Source of the DNA: a bacterium
GTDB taxonomy: Bacteria > Patescibacteriota > Saccharimonadia > Saccharimonadales > SZUA-47
DNA: 50,424 nt
Assembly: GCA_030427365.1 (NCBI GenBank)
Contig: JAUHWW010000004.1
Coordinates: forward strand, 1-50,424
Direction of reading: 5' to 3'
Position numbers and translations under genes: made by a program. The stretch's first letter is position 1, and each line of letters starts with the position of its first letter. The notes beneath the pieces are model-generated. The model ran no database searches. It was not told where the DNA came from and saw only the letters and a program-made list of their open reading frames with translations. Of the stretch, positions 28,717 to 44,543 are shown piece by piece.

Positions 28717-28793
28717 GGGCCATTAGCTCAGCTGGTTAGAGCATCGGCCTCTTAAGCCGAGTGTCCTGGGTTCGAGTCCCAGATGGCCCTCCA
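28717..28793 (+). tRNA. tRNA-Lys(CTT), CCA encoded
   Basis: GGGCCAT..ATGGCCC acceptor, loop CTCTTAA, T-loop TTCGAGT. Confidence 0.95.
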
Positions 28794-28854
28794 ATCAAAT
28801 AAGCTCCCTCGTGGGGCTTTTCTGATTGGAACTATTAACTAGGCTTGAACCCAG

Positions 28855-28968
28855 GTGTCCTGGGTGAAAACTGCCAGTGGAAGTTTGCAAGGAAATCTTC
28901 ACCTGAAAGTTTGCTTTCATGGCAGAAGTTTCGGGGTCGCCAAAGGTGACCGAGTCCCAGACGGCCCT
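28855..28968 (+). other. Structured element inserted in T-loop of a partial tRNA-Lys copy (copy e)
   Basis: GTGTCCTGGGT (identical to 28761-28771) + 28866-28950 insert with GCAAG, bulged hairpin and GGGGTCGCCAAAGGTGACC + CGAGTCCCAGACGGCCCT (17/18 to tRNA-Lys). Confidence 0.75.
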
Positions 28969-28970
28969 TC

Positions 28971-29013
28971 TTGCAAAAAAGCTCCTTGGAGACAAGGAGC
29001 TTTTTGTAATTTG
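28971..29013. terminator. Intrinsic terminator after element e
   Basis: TTGCAAAAAAGCTCCTTggagacAAGGAGCTTTTTGTAA. Confidence 0.8.
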
Positions 29014-41426: not shown

Positions 41427-41494
41427 AAATTTTGTTTGAGGCAAATGCCAGGCAAAAAGTATCGTCTTTGCCTGGCCTAGCACAAACAAAATTT
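41427..41494. repeat. Nested palindrome abutting tRNA-Gly
   Basis: AAATTTTGTTTG (41427-41438) / CAAACAAAATTT (41483-41494), enclosing GCCAGGCAAA (41447-41456) / TTTGCCTGGC (41467-41476). Confidence 0.85.
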
Positions 41495-41599: not shown

Positions 41600-41737
41600 A
41601 CGCCCTGGTAGCTCAGCGGATTAGAGTGAGGGATGCCTATGGCATGCCGCAAGGAGACTTTCCTCATCAATCTATGATTGATTGAGCGAAATCTCGGGGT
41701 CGCGGAACGTGGCGCGGGTTTCCCGCTGCTCGGACCA
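41600..41737 (+). other. 5' half of tRNA-Arg(TCT) interrupted by structured element (copy b)
   Basis: ACGCCCTGGTAGCTCAGCGGATTAGAG (27 nt identical to 41781-41807) followed by P1 GATGCC-TAT-GGCATG, CGCAAGG, bulged hairpin, CGGGGTCGCGGAACGTGGC, then GCGGGTTTCCCGC. Confidence 0.75.
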
Positions 41738-41782
41738 AACCCATTCACACAATTTAACAACAAATGGTTCCTTAATTGATAC

Positions 41783-41859
41783 GCCCTGGTAGCTCAGCGG
41801 ATTAGAGCAGCGGGCTTCTATCCCGCGTGTCGGGGGTTCGACTCCCTCCCAGGGTACCA
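41783..41859 (+). tRNA. tRNA-Arg(TCT), CCA encoded
   Basis: GCCCTGG..CCAGGGT, loop CTTCTAT, T-loop TTCGACT. Confidence 0.95.
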
Positions 41860-41867
41860 ATTTAGAT

Positions 41868-41943
41868 GGCGGGTGTAGTTCAACGGTTAGAACGTCGGGT
41901 TGTGGTTCCGAAGACGGGAGTTCGATTCTCCTCACTCGCCCCA
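41868..41943 (+). tRNA. tRNA-His(GTG), G-1 and CCA encoded
   Basis: G(-1)GCGGGTG..CACTCGCC, loop TTGTGGT. Confidence 0.94.
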
Positions 41944-41978
41944 AATAAAATCAGCTGCAAGGCTGATTTTAATTTTTC
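41944..41978 (+). terminator. Intrinsic terminator after tRNA-His
   Basis: AAATAAAATCAGCtgcaagGCTGATTTTAATTTTTC. Confidence 0.85.
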
Positions 41979-42033
41979 AATGGTTATCCACTTGTTTTCA
42001 CAGAGCTGCTTTGCGATACTAAGCACAAGAATT

Positions 42034-42519
42034 ATGAGTCAAGAAGAAATTGATATTTTCCTACAAGTCGTTGTTGCCGTCTGTATGGGTGGAATCATCG
42101 GCATCGAGCGTGAGTTGTCTAAAAAACCAGCTGGCATTCGGACGCACATGTTTGTCGCAGGAGCAGCAGCACTCGTCATGGGTATCAGCACGCTGCTTAT
42201 CCACGACTTTGCCAATGATTTTGGCTCAGTGCAGTCTGACCCTGTGCGTGTTATAGAGGCGGTTATCGTTGGCATCAGCTTTATCGGCGCAGGCACTGTA
42301 TTAAAGAGCGAGAAGTCCCATAATGTTTACTACCTCACAACGGCGGCGTCTATCCTATTTGCAGCCGCAATCGGCATCACTGTTGGCCTAGAACGCTACT
42401 GGCTTGCACTGTGTCTTACAGGGCTCGTCGTGCTCACAAACTTAGCTGTTGGAAACCTCGAGCTAAAATATCTCGGGAAAAAAGAACACCATACCGATGA
42501 TGTTCACCCGCAGAACTAG
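42034..42519 (+). CDS. MgtC/SapB family protein
   Basis: 'GGIIGIERELSKKPAGIRTHMFVAGAAALVMGIS...AVIVGISFIGAGTVLKS...LTTAASILFAAAIGITVGLERYW'. Confidence 0.9.
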   Translation: MSQEEIDIFLQVVVAVCMGGIIGIERELSKKPAGIRTHMFVAGAAALVMGISTLLIHDFANDFGSVQSDPVRVIEAVIVGISFIGAGTVLKSEKSHNVYYLTTAASILFAAAIGITVGLERYWLALCLTGLVVLTNLAVGNLELKYLGKKEHHTDDVHPQN

Positions 42520-42526
42520 ATAATGC

Positions 42527-43057
42527 TTAGGTGATTATTCTTTCGAGCACAGTTCCGAGTGTGTAGGCAATAAGCGCTGCTGCAACACCGAGTCCAAGAG
42601 TTTCAAGCACAGACTTTGCCTTATCAACTCCTGTTACGACAGCTCTCAAATAGCCGATACCTGCGAATGCCGCGAGCGTTAAGAATATCGAGTATATGAG
42701 TGCATTATCGCCGAGCTGTAATTCAAACATATAATCGGCAATGTAGATGACTAGTGGGACAAACCCAATGACAACAAAGGAAATAAACGTTGCAATTGAA
42801 GCCCCGAGTGGCGACTCTTGTTCTGCGGTATCCTTACTTTTTTTTGCTTCGAGCTGCTGATCGGCTTTTTCGCTAAGATACGCGCCAACCGCCATCGAGA
42901 ACCCGTCAGCGAAAACATTTGCTAACCCCAAAATCAGTATCACTTGACTGCTAAAGTTAGCCCCGGCAGCGCCAGTCACGATCGCGAAGGTCGTCACCGC
43001 ACCATCCATGCCGCCATAAACGAACTCACGCAGGTTGCTCTCAATTCTCCCAGTCAT
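42527..43057 (-). CDS. VIT1/CCC1 family membrane transporter
   Basis: 'LREFVYGGMDGAVTTFAIVTGAAGA...NVFADGFSMAVGAYLSEKAD'. Confidence 0.88.
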   Translation of the reverse strand: MTGRIESNLREFVYGGMDGAVTTFAIVTGAAGANFSSQVILILGLANVFADGFSMAVGAYLSEKADQQLEAKKSKDTAEQESPLGASIATFISFVVIGFVPLVIYIADYMFELQLGDNALIYSIFLTLAAFAGIGYLRAVVTGVDKAKSVLETLGLGVAAALIAYTLGTVLERIIT

Positions 43058-43086
43058 ACCTTTTAGTATCGCAGACGATAGACGGC

Positions 43087-43740
43087 TCAGGCAAGTGAGT
43101 TTATGAATATGACGGTAAAGAGTGGCGTAAATAGGTTGTCAGACCCGTATGGTGAGCTGTTCTCAAGGACAGTCGCAACTGCTGGCAACAACACCAGCAT
43201 CGCAAGCATGTTATTTTCAATTGTTTCTTGTCCGCCGATACCCCAGGCAATAGCGATTGATACGTACACTAGAGCAATATAGGCGACAGTGCCTGCGATA
43301 CTTTTTCGGAGGTTTTTCTTGCCAAAAACGTAATAGCTGTTGCTGCCGCCCCAGAACCGTCCTACAACCGCGGCGCCGCCATCAGCAAGCGCCATTAGTA
43401 AGATAGCCAGGGTGAACACCCAGGGCTCACGCGTAAGCAACGCGCAAAAAGCCATAGAAAGGGCAAAGAACAACTCGCCGTAAGTTCGCCGCTTTACCGC
43501 GTAAATCGCGTGAATGAGGCCAGTTGTACGCGAATAAATGAGCACGTTAAATCCGACCAAACTAAGCAGGAATATCACCTCAAGCGGGATGTAGTGCGGC
43601 CAAAATGCCATCCACATGCCCGCCAAAATATGTATAAATTTGCGTGCACGCTCGCCTTTCACAACACCTTTACGCCATAGTGCTTCTGAAATTAGCAAGA
43701 CGAGGCCAACCGGCAACAAGGCAATGAGAAGTTTTAACAC
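43087..43740 (-). CDS. Dolichol kinase / phosphatidate cytidylyltransferase-like membrane protein
   Basis: 'RKFIHILAGMWMAFWP', 'ALADGGAAVVGRFWG...FGKKNLRKSIAGTVAYI'. Confidence 0.78.
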   Translation of the reverse strand: MLKLLIALLPVGLVLLISEALWRKGVVKGERARKFIHILAGMWMAFWPHYIPLEVIFLLSLVGFNVLIYSRTTGLIHAIYAVKRRTYGELFFALSMAFCALLTREPWVFTLAILLMALADGGAAVVGRFWGGSNSYYVFGKKNLRKSIAGTVAYIALVYVSIAIAWGIGGQETIENNMLAMLVLLPAVATVLENSSPYGSDNLFTPLFTVIFINSLA

Positions 43741-43802
43741 AATGCATCGATTATAACACTGGTAACACCAGCAGATCTGCGGTATAATCGTCTGAGTAAT
43801 TT

Positions 43803-43936
43803 CGGGGTGTAGCTCAGTTGGCTAGAGTGAGAGCCGTCGGTGACGGGTCGCAAGGGAACCCACTCTTGAAAACTTGTTTTTCAAAGATGTGGTGACGGGG
43901 TCGCCGGAGGTGACCGCGGTTTGGCCCAAACCTGAC
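43803..43936 (+). other. 5' half of tRNA-Pro interrupted by structured element (copy a)
   Basis: CGGGGTGTAGCTCAGTTGGCTAGAGTG (27 nt identical to 43972-43998), then P1 CCGTC-GGT-GACGG, GCAAGG, hairpin TTGAAAA-CTTG-TTTTTCAA, GGGGTCGCCGGAGGTGACC, then GCGGTTTGG (tRNA-Pro anticodon arm). Confidence 0.75.
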
Positions 43937-43971
43937 CGAAATGTCACTAAACTAATTTACAATTTATATTT

Positions 43972-44048
43972 CGGGGTGTAGCTCAGTTGGCTAGAGTGCG
44001 CGGTTTGGGACCGTGAGGTCGGAGGTTCAAGTCCTCTCACCCCGACCA
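43972..44048 (+). tRNA. tRNA-Pro(TGG), CCA encoded
   Basis: CGGGGTG..CACCCCG, loop TTTGGGA, T-loop TTCAAGT. Confidence 0.95.
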
Positions 44049-44086
44049 AATAAAGATCCGTCCGTTTGGACGGTTTTTTATTTGGT
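44045..44086. terminator. Terminator with stem starting at tRNA-Pro ACCA
   Basis: ACCAAATAAAgatCCGTCC-GTTT-GGACGG..TTTATTTGGT. Confidence 0.85.
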
Positions 44087-44101
44087 TTCTGAGGGATGAG
44101 A

Positions 44102-44230
44102 TGGGCTTGAACCGTTAGGTGAGAAGTGCCATAAGCGCACTTCGCAAGAGAATCTTTCAGCTATGAAACTTGTTTCATGCTTGAAAGTTCTGGGCCCGCA
44201 GAATGTGGGCAAGTCCTCTCACCCCGACCA
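44102..44230 (+). other. Degenerate tRNA-Pro copy with element in T-loop (copy c)
   Basis: GGCTTGAACCGTTAGGT + 44121-44210 insert (P1 GAAGTGC/GCACTTC, GCAAG, AGAAtCTTTC/GAAAGTTCT, GCCCGC-AGAAT-GTGGGC) + CAAGTCCTCTCACCCCGACCA identical to tRNA-Pro 3' end. Confidence 0.78.
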
Positions 44231-44270
44231 AAGAAAAGAGTCGTCCAAATGGACGGCTTTTTTCTTTGAT
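44231..44270 (+). terminator. Terminator after element c
   Basis: AAGAAAAGAGTCGTCC-AAAT-GGACGGCTTTTTTCTTT. Confidence 0.85.
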
Positions 44271-44280
44271 TAGAGGTAGG

Positions 44281-44543
44281 ATTTGTAGCTCAAACCTCAC
44301 GGAGTGAGTCGGAGGTGAGGAGTGCTGCGTCTAGCACTCCGGAAACCCGGAAGCAGATTTTGAACTTGCTTCAAAGTCTTTTGAGGGCGGGGCGGGACTC
44401 GGCTGAATCCGCCAGCTGGCAGATCACCGAGATCGTGACAAAGTCCGGTGGCATTCTGCAAGGCAATCTTCTTCATCAAACTTACTGGATTGAACGAAGT
44501 TGCGGGGTCGCTGAAAGTGACCAAGTCCAGTATGCCCCGACCA
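44281..44543 (+). other. Degenerate tRNA-Pro copy carrying two nested/tandem elements (copy d)
   Basis: GTAGCTCA and GTGAGTCGGAGGT tRNA remnants, hairpin GGAGTGCT/AGCACTCC, second unit TGCAAGGCAATCTTC..GAAGTTGCGGGGTCGCTGAAAGTGACC, then AAGTCCAGTATGCCCCGACCA. Confidence 0.7.

Follow-up and report, generated by a model that had tools for sequence, protein, structure and literature searches.

A probable family of small, protein-free mobile elements that insert into tRNA genes of Saccharibacteria

Rickettsia palindromic elements (RPE) are small folded selfish elements that invade the genes of a reduced bacterial genome; we know of none with a comparable specificity for tRNA loops, with duplication and an antisense fold-back, or with replacement of two nucleotides. 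Group I introns are also found as structured inserts in the loops of bacterial tRNA genes, and the known ones are far larger than 86 nucleotides (nt). Repetitive extragenic palindromic sequences (REP), each a lone palindrome 20-40 nt in length, flank the gene of their REP-associated tyrosine transposase (RAYT) (PMC2817692, PMC3733652). The GC clusters of yeast mitochondria (PMC4478555) and the repetitive hairpin elements of sponge mitochondrial DNA (PMC2800124) are mobile, protein-free hairpins of tens of nucleotides in small genomes. Some of them lie inside RNA genes, clusters merge, GC clusters are bordered by direct repeats of AG or ACT, and whether they move by a DNA or an RNA mechanism is debated (PMC4478555, PMC2800124). 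Here, a short structured element found in broken tRNA genes is described from a 50,424-nt stretch (the window), which is the complete contig JAUHWW010000004.1 of a 935 kb, 99% complete saccharibacterial genome.

The existence, structure, mobility and insertion rule of this element are well supported. Its copies probably make up a family of mobile insertion elements that are non-autonomous, encode no protein and are defined by folded structure, an explanation to which we assign a probability of roughly 0.62. The best reading is that of a new element family, specialised on tRNA loops in Saccharibacteria and set apart from REP, RPE and GC clusters.

The core of the element is ~86 nt long and consists of TGAG, a hairpin P1, GCAAG or GGAAA, P2, GG, and a hairpin P3 that ends in GTGAC. 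P2 is a two-tier hairpin, with a one-base bulge in its lower stem and an upper stem above it. Nine copies from the window's own genome, aligned with MAFFT, supported four helices (P1, lower P2, upper P2 and P3), with 94% of the pair cells paired and double changes in 22 of 28 pairs. The covariation score was 0.62, as compared to 0.20 for shuffled alignments and at most 0.14 for slid partners, and none of 500 shuffles reached the observed value. A covariance model built from these nine copies (R1) found 130 distinct copies in one batch. In this larger set, 97.2% of 3602 cells were paired, double changes occurred in all 28 pairs, and all 28 covaried, with a score of 0.58 versus 0.17 when shuffled; the 130-copy alignment was fitted to the structure, whereas the nine-copy alignment was not. 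Covarying helices had been proposed in a first-pass annotation of the window, and the proposal holds. E-values from R1 and from the model R2 are rough, as calibration was short; strong matches lie at or below 1e-17. G.U cells outnumbered A.C cells (119 versus 26) when the pair at which G.U is the rule was excluded. This excess indicates that it is the tRNA-sense strand that folds.

Searches of the cores against Rfam 15 returned only tRNA matches at the gathering cut-off and no credible match at relaxed thresholds, in keeping with the earlier proposal of a family distinct from those in Rfam and from group I and II introns. Under both settings, no group I or group II intron catalytic core and no known ribozyme family was matched by the Rfam covariance models. 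The likeness to twister-sister was limited to a short GCAAGG, without an Rfam match, and T-box, tmRNA and k-turn identities were considered and rejected. A longer subtype of ~124-135 nt also exists. Its extended P3 (GGGGTCG...CGTGAC) is common to family f37 (L339, L349, L350, L341) and to 44316-44439 in the window; several members of f37 carry RAYTs.

The insertion rule was derived from 96 copies in which both flanks mapped to an intact tRNA. Exactly two nucleotides were replaced in 82 of the 96, and the modal core length was 86 nt. The base before the core was G in 95 copies (GG in 74), and the core started with TGAG or TGAA in 93, GTGAC being the commonest end. The site lay 23-24 nt from the tRNA 3' end, in the T-loop, in 72 copies, 52 nt from it, at the D/anticodon-stem junction, in 17, and 39 nt from it, in the anticodon loop, in four. 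The core is shown to enter after a G, usually GG, in exact exchange for two nucleotides, and to prefer targets that form hairpins. The T-loop ranks first, ahead of the D/anticodon-stem junction and the anticodon loop; its own copies and one non-tRNA structured locus are targets as well.

Targets across genomes also included the D-loop, the antisense strand of tRNA-Phe at CTGGG^GA^CACAAGG (L241, L247, L054) and a non-tRNA hairpin locus (L245, L251 three times, L265). In two genomes (L271, L297), a core was located inside P3 of another core at GGG^GT^C, with two nucleotides replaced and no flanking duplication, and elsewhere (L045, L267, L276) two cores occupied two sites of one broken tRNA copy. 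Of the insertion sites given in the first-pass annotation, the T-loop and the junction of the D- and anticodon arms, both stand, and their exclusivity does not. The entry of one precise unit into many unrelated targets indicates a mobile element. The first-pass suggestion of a structured, protein-free element that moves or duplicates and has tRNA genes as its target is upheld: copies are nested, several isoacceptors are hit, the distribution is patchy and the insertion rule is precise. Traits of miniature inverted-repeat transposable elements were likewise seen, as the copies are multiple, short, without an open reading frame, precise at their ends and in places nested. Terminal inverted repeats and a short target-site duplication were not found: the TGAG...GTGAC ends are not inverted repeats, and two nucleotides are replaced. 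An identity as IS200/IS605 ends was rejected, as P3 lies at the very end of the element and two nucleotides are lost.

The non-tRNA locus (L265:1330-1750; also L245, L251, L023, L340 and L351) is a conserved intergenic region in which the hairpin GAGCCTTTAGAGGGGGTGGGCACCGCTAAAGGCTC comes first and is followed by conserved stretches (ACACCCTTCAACCCACCTTGAAGG...). No Rfam match was obtained for it even at an E-value of 1. It is possibly an undescribed structured RNA of Saccharibacteria that is also a target of the element.

The genomic context was assessed for 170 distinct copies. Of these, 143 had an intact tRNA gene no more than 300 bp away, 140 of the 143 lay on the same strand as that gene, and the neighbouring intact tRNAs represented ~18 amino-acid specificities. 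A copy at an essential tRNA is accompanied by a local duplication, either of the 5' part (sometimes with the promoter) or of the 3' part (with or without the terminator), and by a fold-back antisense to the intact target; the intact tRNA remains. In the upstream type, the order is duplicated tRNA 5' part, core, a 3' exon of ~7-10 nt, antisense segment and intact tRNA. In the downstream type, the intact tRNA and its terminator are followed by the antisense segment, a 5' exon of 8-14 nt, the core (mostly 60-86 nt from the tRNA) and the duplicated 3' part, which often carries a terminator. Fresh copies display perfect direct repeats that reach past the tRNA into the locus-specific flank (71 bp for tRNA-His in L055, 63-64 bp for tRNA-Lys in L063 and L081, and 51 bp for tRNA-Phe in L011). 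Many copies are decayed; tRNA halves remain identical where flanks have diverged, and terminators are kept at some copies. Tandem arrays were observed at L157, L248, L041 and L267, where units of core, antisense segment and tRNA part are repeated by one tRNA gene.

The spacer on the short-exon side was compared with the tRNA around the insertion site in 122 copies, and a complementarity score of at least 8 was reached in 83%. The controls gave 4% for shuffled spacers, 25% for the sense direction and 27% for other tRNAs, T-arms of different tRNAs resembling each other. In 91% of strong cases the antisense segment spanned the replaced dinucleotide, which indicates that the segment derives from an uninterrupted target. 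The segment may have arisen by template switching during repair, or it may act as a guide.

The window contains five short-type copies (cores of 86-91 nt) and one long-type copy (~124 nt), in or adjoining broken duplicates of tRNA-Arg, tRNA-Pro and tRNA-Lys genes. The five copies listed in the first-pass annotation, with their order of parts and their helices, were all present, as were the intact tRNA-Arg(TCT), tRNA-Pro(TGG) and tRNA-Lys(CTT) genes beside them; the count is corrected by a sixth, longer-type element at 44316-44439, nested at the 5' junction of 44440-44521. The tRNA copies are broken, as described there, in a manner that is not random: a whole tRNA half is found on one side, and ~8-14 nt with an antisense fold-back on the other. 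The P3 pairing given there for the Arg copy is corrected, as P3 of this copy is imperfect (GGTCGC/GTGGCG). ARAGORN and Rfam identified the three intact tRNA genes and gave no other match over the inserts. The features by position are as follows.

28717-28793 (+): intact tRNA-Lys(CTT), then a terminator (ARAGORN, Rfam).
28844-28864 (+): fold-back CTTGAACCCAGG, antisense to the tRNA-Lys T-arm, then 5' exon TGTCCTGGG (from sequence).
28865-28950 (+): core element d, short type, at the T-loop site CTGGG^TT^CGAGTCC (R1 95.9 bits, E 9.5e-22).
28951-29005 (+): tRNA-Lys 3' half, a diverged duplicate, with terminator (sequence comparison).
41602-41626 (+): tRNA-Arg(TCT) 5' part, a duplicate identical to 41783-41807 that ends GGATTAGAG at the insertion site (upstream architecture).
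41627-41713 (+): core element a, short type, at TAGAG^CA^GCGGG (R1 85.5 bits, E 4.7e-19).
41714-41731 (+): short 3' exon GCGGG with fold-back CCCGCTGCTC, antisense across the site to GAGCAGCGGG of the intact tRNA-Arg (sequence; family-wide antisense statistic).
41783-41859 (+): intact tRNA-Arg(TCT) (ARAGORN, Rfam).
43803-43827 (+): tRNA-Pro(TGG) 5' part, a duplicate; a perfect 31-nt direct repeat makes 43799-43829 equal to 43968-43998 (sequence comparison).
43828-43914 (+): core element b, short type, at TAGAG^TG^CGCGG (R1 91.6 bits, E 1.2e-20).
43915-43932 (+): short 3' exon CGCGGTTTGG with fold-back cccAAACC (from sequence).
43972-44048 (+): intact tRNA-Pro(TGG) (ARAGORN, Rfam), then a terminator at 44048-44085.
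44098-44119 (+): fold-back (GAGATGGGCTTGAACC) antisense to the tRNA-Pro T-arm and short 5' exon with a GG end (from sequence).
44120-44209 (+): core element c, short type, in the T-loop of a tRNA-Pro 3'-half copy (R1 82.1 bits, E 3.4e-18).
44210-44230 (+): tRNA-Pro 3' half, a duplicate (CAAGTCCTCTCACCCCGACCA) identical to the end of 43972-44048, then its own terminator at 44230-44268.
44289-44315 (+): antisense fold-back (CTCAAACCTCACGG) and 5' exon GAGTCGGAGG (from sequence).
44316-44439 (+): long-type element of ~124 nt, nested at GG^TG^ of the next short copy (sequence; same layout in L267; long-type relatives).
44440-44521 (+): short-type core e2, its 5' end displaced by the nested long-type element (R1 78.1 bits, E 3.7e-17).
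44522-44543 (+): tRNA-Pro 3' half, a diverged duplicate (CAAGTCCAGTATGCCCCGACCA; sequence comparison).

A long inverted repeat was also noted at 41428-41493, upstream of tRNA-Gly(TCC). The microRNA-family match at this position was weak, fell under the gathering score and is surely spurious.

In the genome as a whole, R1 matched 20 places with an E-value cut-off of 0.5, and 18 of these had E-values under 1e-4. The search of related genomes gave the many matches that the first-pass annotation had named as support: 53 of 100 relatives had copies, the number per genome ranged from 0 to 35, and many genomes of the same order had none. In a phylum-wide draw of 287 genomes, eight matched, all from this order and none from outside it. 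Among named records with copies, most bear the title Candidatus Saccharibacteria. In L073 (JAHWKM010000010.1), titled Candidatus Parcubacteria, a copy with a strong score of 87 bits lies by tRNA-Pro(GGG); either the record is misnamed or wrongly binned, or the element has jumped to another class. A loose pattern caught 51 viral contigs, none of which passed the covariance model. No published description of the family was found in a literature search that covered few subscription journals and little of bioRxiv.

In the explanation preferred here, an enzyme acting in trans would recognise the folded sense strand; the most plausible candidate is a single-strand nuclease or transposase of the HUH type. 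Insertion into a tRNA hairpin, followed by gap repair and template switching, could give rise to the duplication and the fold-back, and only events after which a functional tRNA is still present would survive selection. Insertions without duplication were observed in dispensable targets alone, and those at essential tRNAs came with duplication, which suggests selection for a surviving tRNA. Of the candidate enzymes tested in the 100 relatives, only a RAYT-type HUH transposase co-occurs with the element, in 28 of 53 element-bearing versus 5 of 47 element-free genomes (Fisher P 6e-6; permutation within families, P 0.0018), and RAYT is a lead. Reverse transcriptase (17 of 100 genomes) and RtcB (3 of 100) were not associated with the element, serine resolvase was found in 66% of both groups (35/53 with the element and 31/47 without, by hand count), and TnpB in none of the 100.

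Several observations weigh against this explanation. RAYT is missing from 25 of the 53 positive genomes, including the window's own and the gap-free G045 (17-22 copies), and saccharibacterial RAYT genes carry palindromes of their own, mostly not beside elements. The antisense fold-back is not by itself predicted by simple DNA insertion. The repeat stops at the mature tRNA end, or a few nucleotides from it, in close to half of the copies, a pattern that may point to an RNA intermediate, to gene conversion or to selection acting on the tRNA part. Finally, the flanks in G079 (19 copies) and its genus-mate G091 (0 copies) are too diverged for an empty-site alignment, so that insertion was deduced from direct repeats, nesting and distribution.

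As a special case of the explanation above, the element could be strictly REP-like, that is, the dedicated substrate of co-resident RAYT transposases. Like REP and bacterial interspersed mosaic elements, the copies are short, protein-free, multi-copy bacterial hairpins with a G-rich head, here with a bulge, and the co-occurrence with RAYT favors this account. However, the element exceeds REP size, with three covarying hairpins in 86 nt, replaces two nucleotides, inserts into tRNA loops and does not flank RAYT genes. An element was found within 300 bp of only 2 of 20 RAYT genes examined. Many RAYT genes of ~205 amino acids (L308-L327) have a near-perfect palindrome on both sides (e.g. TTAAAAAGGTCCGTCCTTTTTAA), different for each gene. 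With these palindromes and with several high-copy genomes lacking RAYT, the enzyme was downgraded as likely owner of the element, and the strict account is possible but doubtful.

An RNA-level parasite was also considered, in which a ribozyme-like core would join tRNA transcripts through reverse splicing or ligation and return to DNA by way of reverse transcriptase or recombination, with the antisense segment as a guide that holds the exons. The sense-strand fold with its conserved G.U pair, the tRNA-sense orientation of nearly all copies near a tRNA, duplications that in many cases stop exactly at the mature 5' end or CCA, and the pairing of the antisense segment with both core flanks are consistent with this account. 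On the other side are the absence of a reverse transcriptase from the window's own genome, the lack of association across the 100 genomes, the lack of a matching ribozyme family, and the copies in the tRNA-Phe antisense strand and nested in other elements. The first-pass annotation had proposed a mobile or duplicating structured RNA as one reading; its mobility stands, and insertion at the DNA level fits the nested and tRNA-Phe antisense-strand copies at least as well. The RNA-level account is unlikely. Less likely still in our estimate is a minimal self-mobilising parasite: a folded RNA, or single-stranded DNA, of 86 nt that would need no enzymes beyond house-keeping ones, if any, to enter tRNA loops at GG^NN^. 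Its new antisense segment would align the target and the flanks, and tRNA duplication would let it survive in streamlined genomes.

The first-pass annotation had offered a tRNA-linked non-coding RNA as its other alternative, for instance a cis-encoded regulator or decoy of the adjoining tRNA that spread by duplication through host benefit. Identical tRNA halves between diverged flanks, a tRNA-specific antisense segment for each copy and retained terminators are in line with such a role. This account is highly unlikely in view of up to 35 copies versus none in relatives, the nested and non-tRNA copies, the many decayed copies and the scant promoter space between the tRNA terminator and downstream-type copies. 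Solo attachment sites left behind by tRNA-targeting integrases can be dismissed as very improbable, for although the tRNA is restored with its displaced half beyond the element, and the T-loop and anticodon loop are classic attB positions, the duplicates of fresh copies include locus-specific flanks (terminator, promoter) and were thus not carried in, the core is conserved and covarying, insertions are nested, no recombinase is associated, and no integrase gene was found between core and displaced tRNA half, with a core-tRNA distance mostly of 15-100 nt.

The element works like REP, RPE and mitochondrial GC clusters and departs from each in the defining tests run here. It shares with RPE a small folded, selfish form and the invasion of genes in a reduced genome; sequence and structure differ. 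Unlike GC clusters, it replaces two nucleotides, and hosts and structure are unrelated. As in group I introns, the insert is structured, sits in a tRNA loop and has an antisense segment that aligns both exons in the manner of P1/P10, but there is no Rfam match to the group I core and the interrupted tRNA is a duplicate: an intact tRNA adjoins the copy at most loci, where an intron would be expected to interrupt the sole gene.

The essential, single-copy tRNA genes of parasitic genomes of 0.5-1.2 Mb are seemingly the worst site for a parasite, yet they are the home of this element in about half of the sampled species of the order. Annotation is affected as well: the copies give rise to broken tRNA genes, and tRNA counts in Saccharibacteria could be confused by them. 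With 170 copies of exact boundaries, the family provides a clean and statistically rich system for the protein-free hairpin mobility also represented by REP, RPE and mitochondrial GC clusters, and it bears on how tRNA genes get duplicated and lost.

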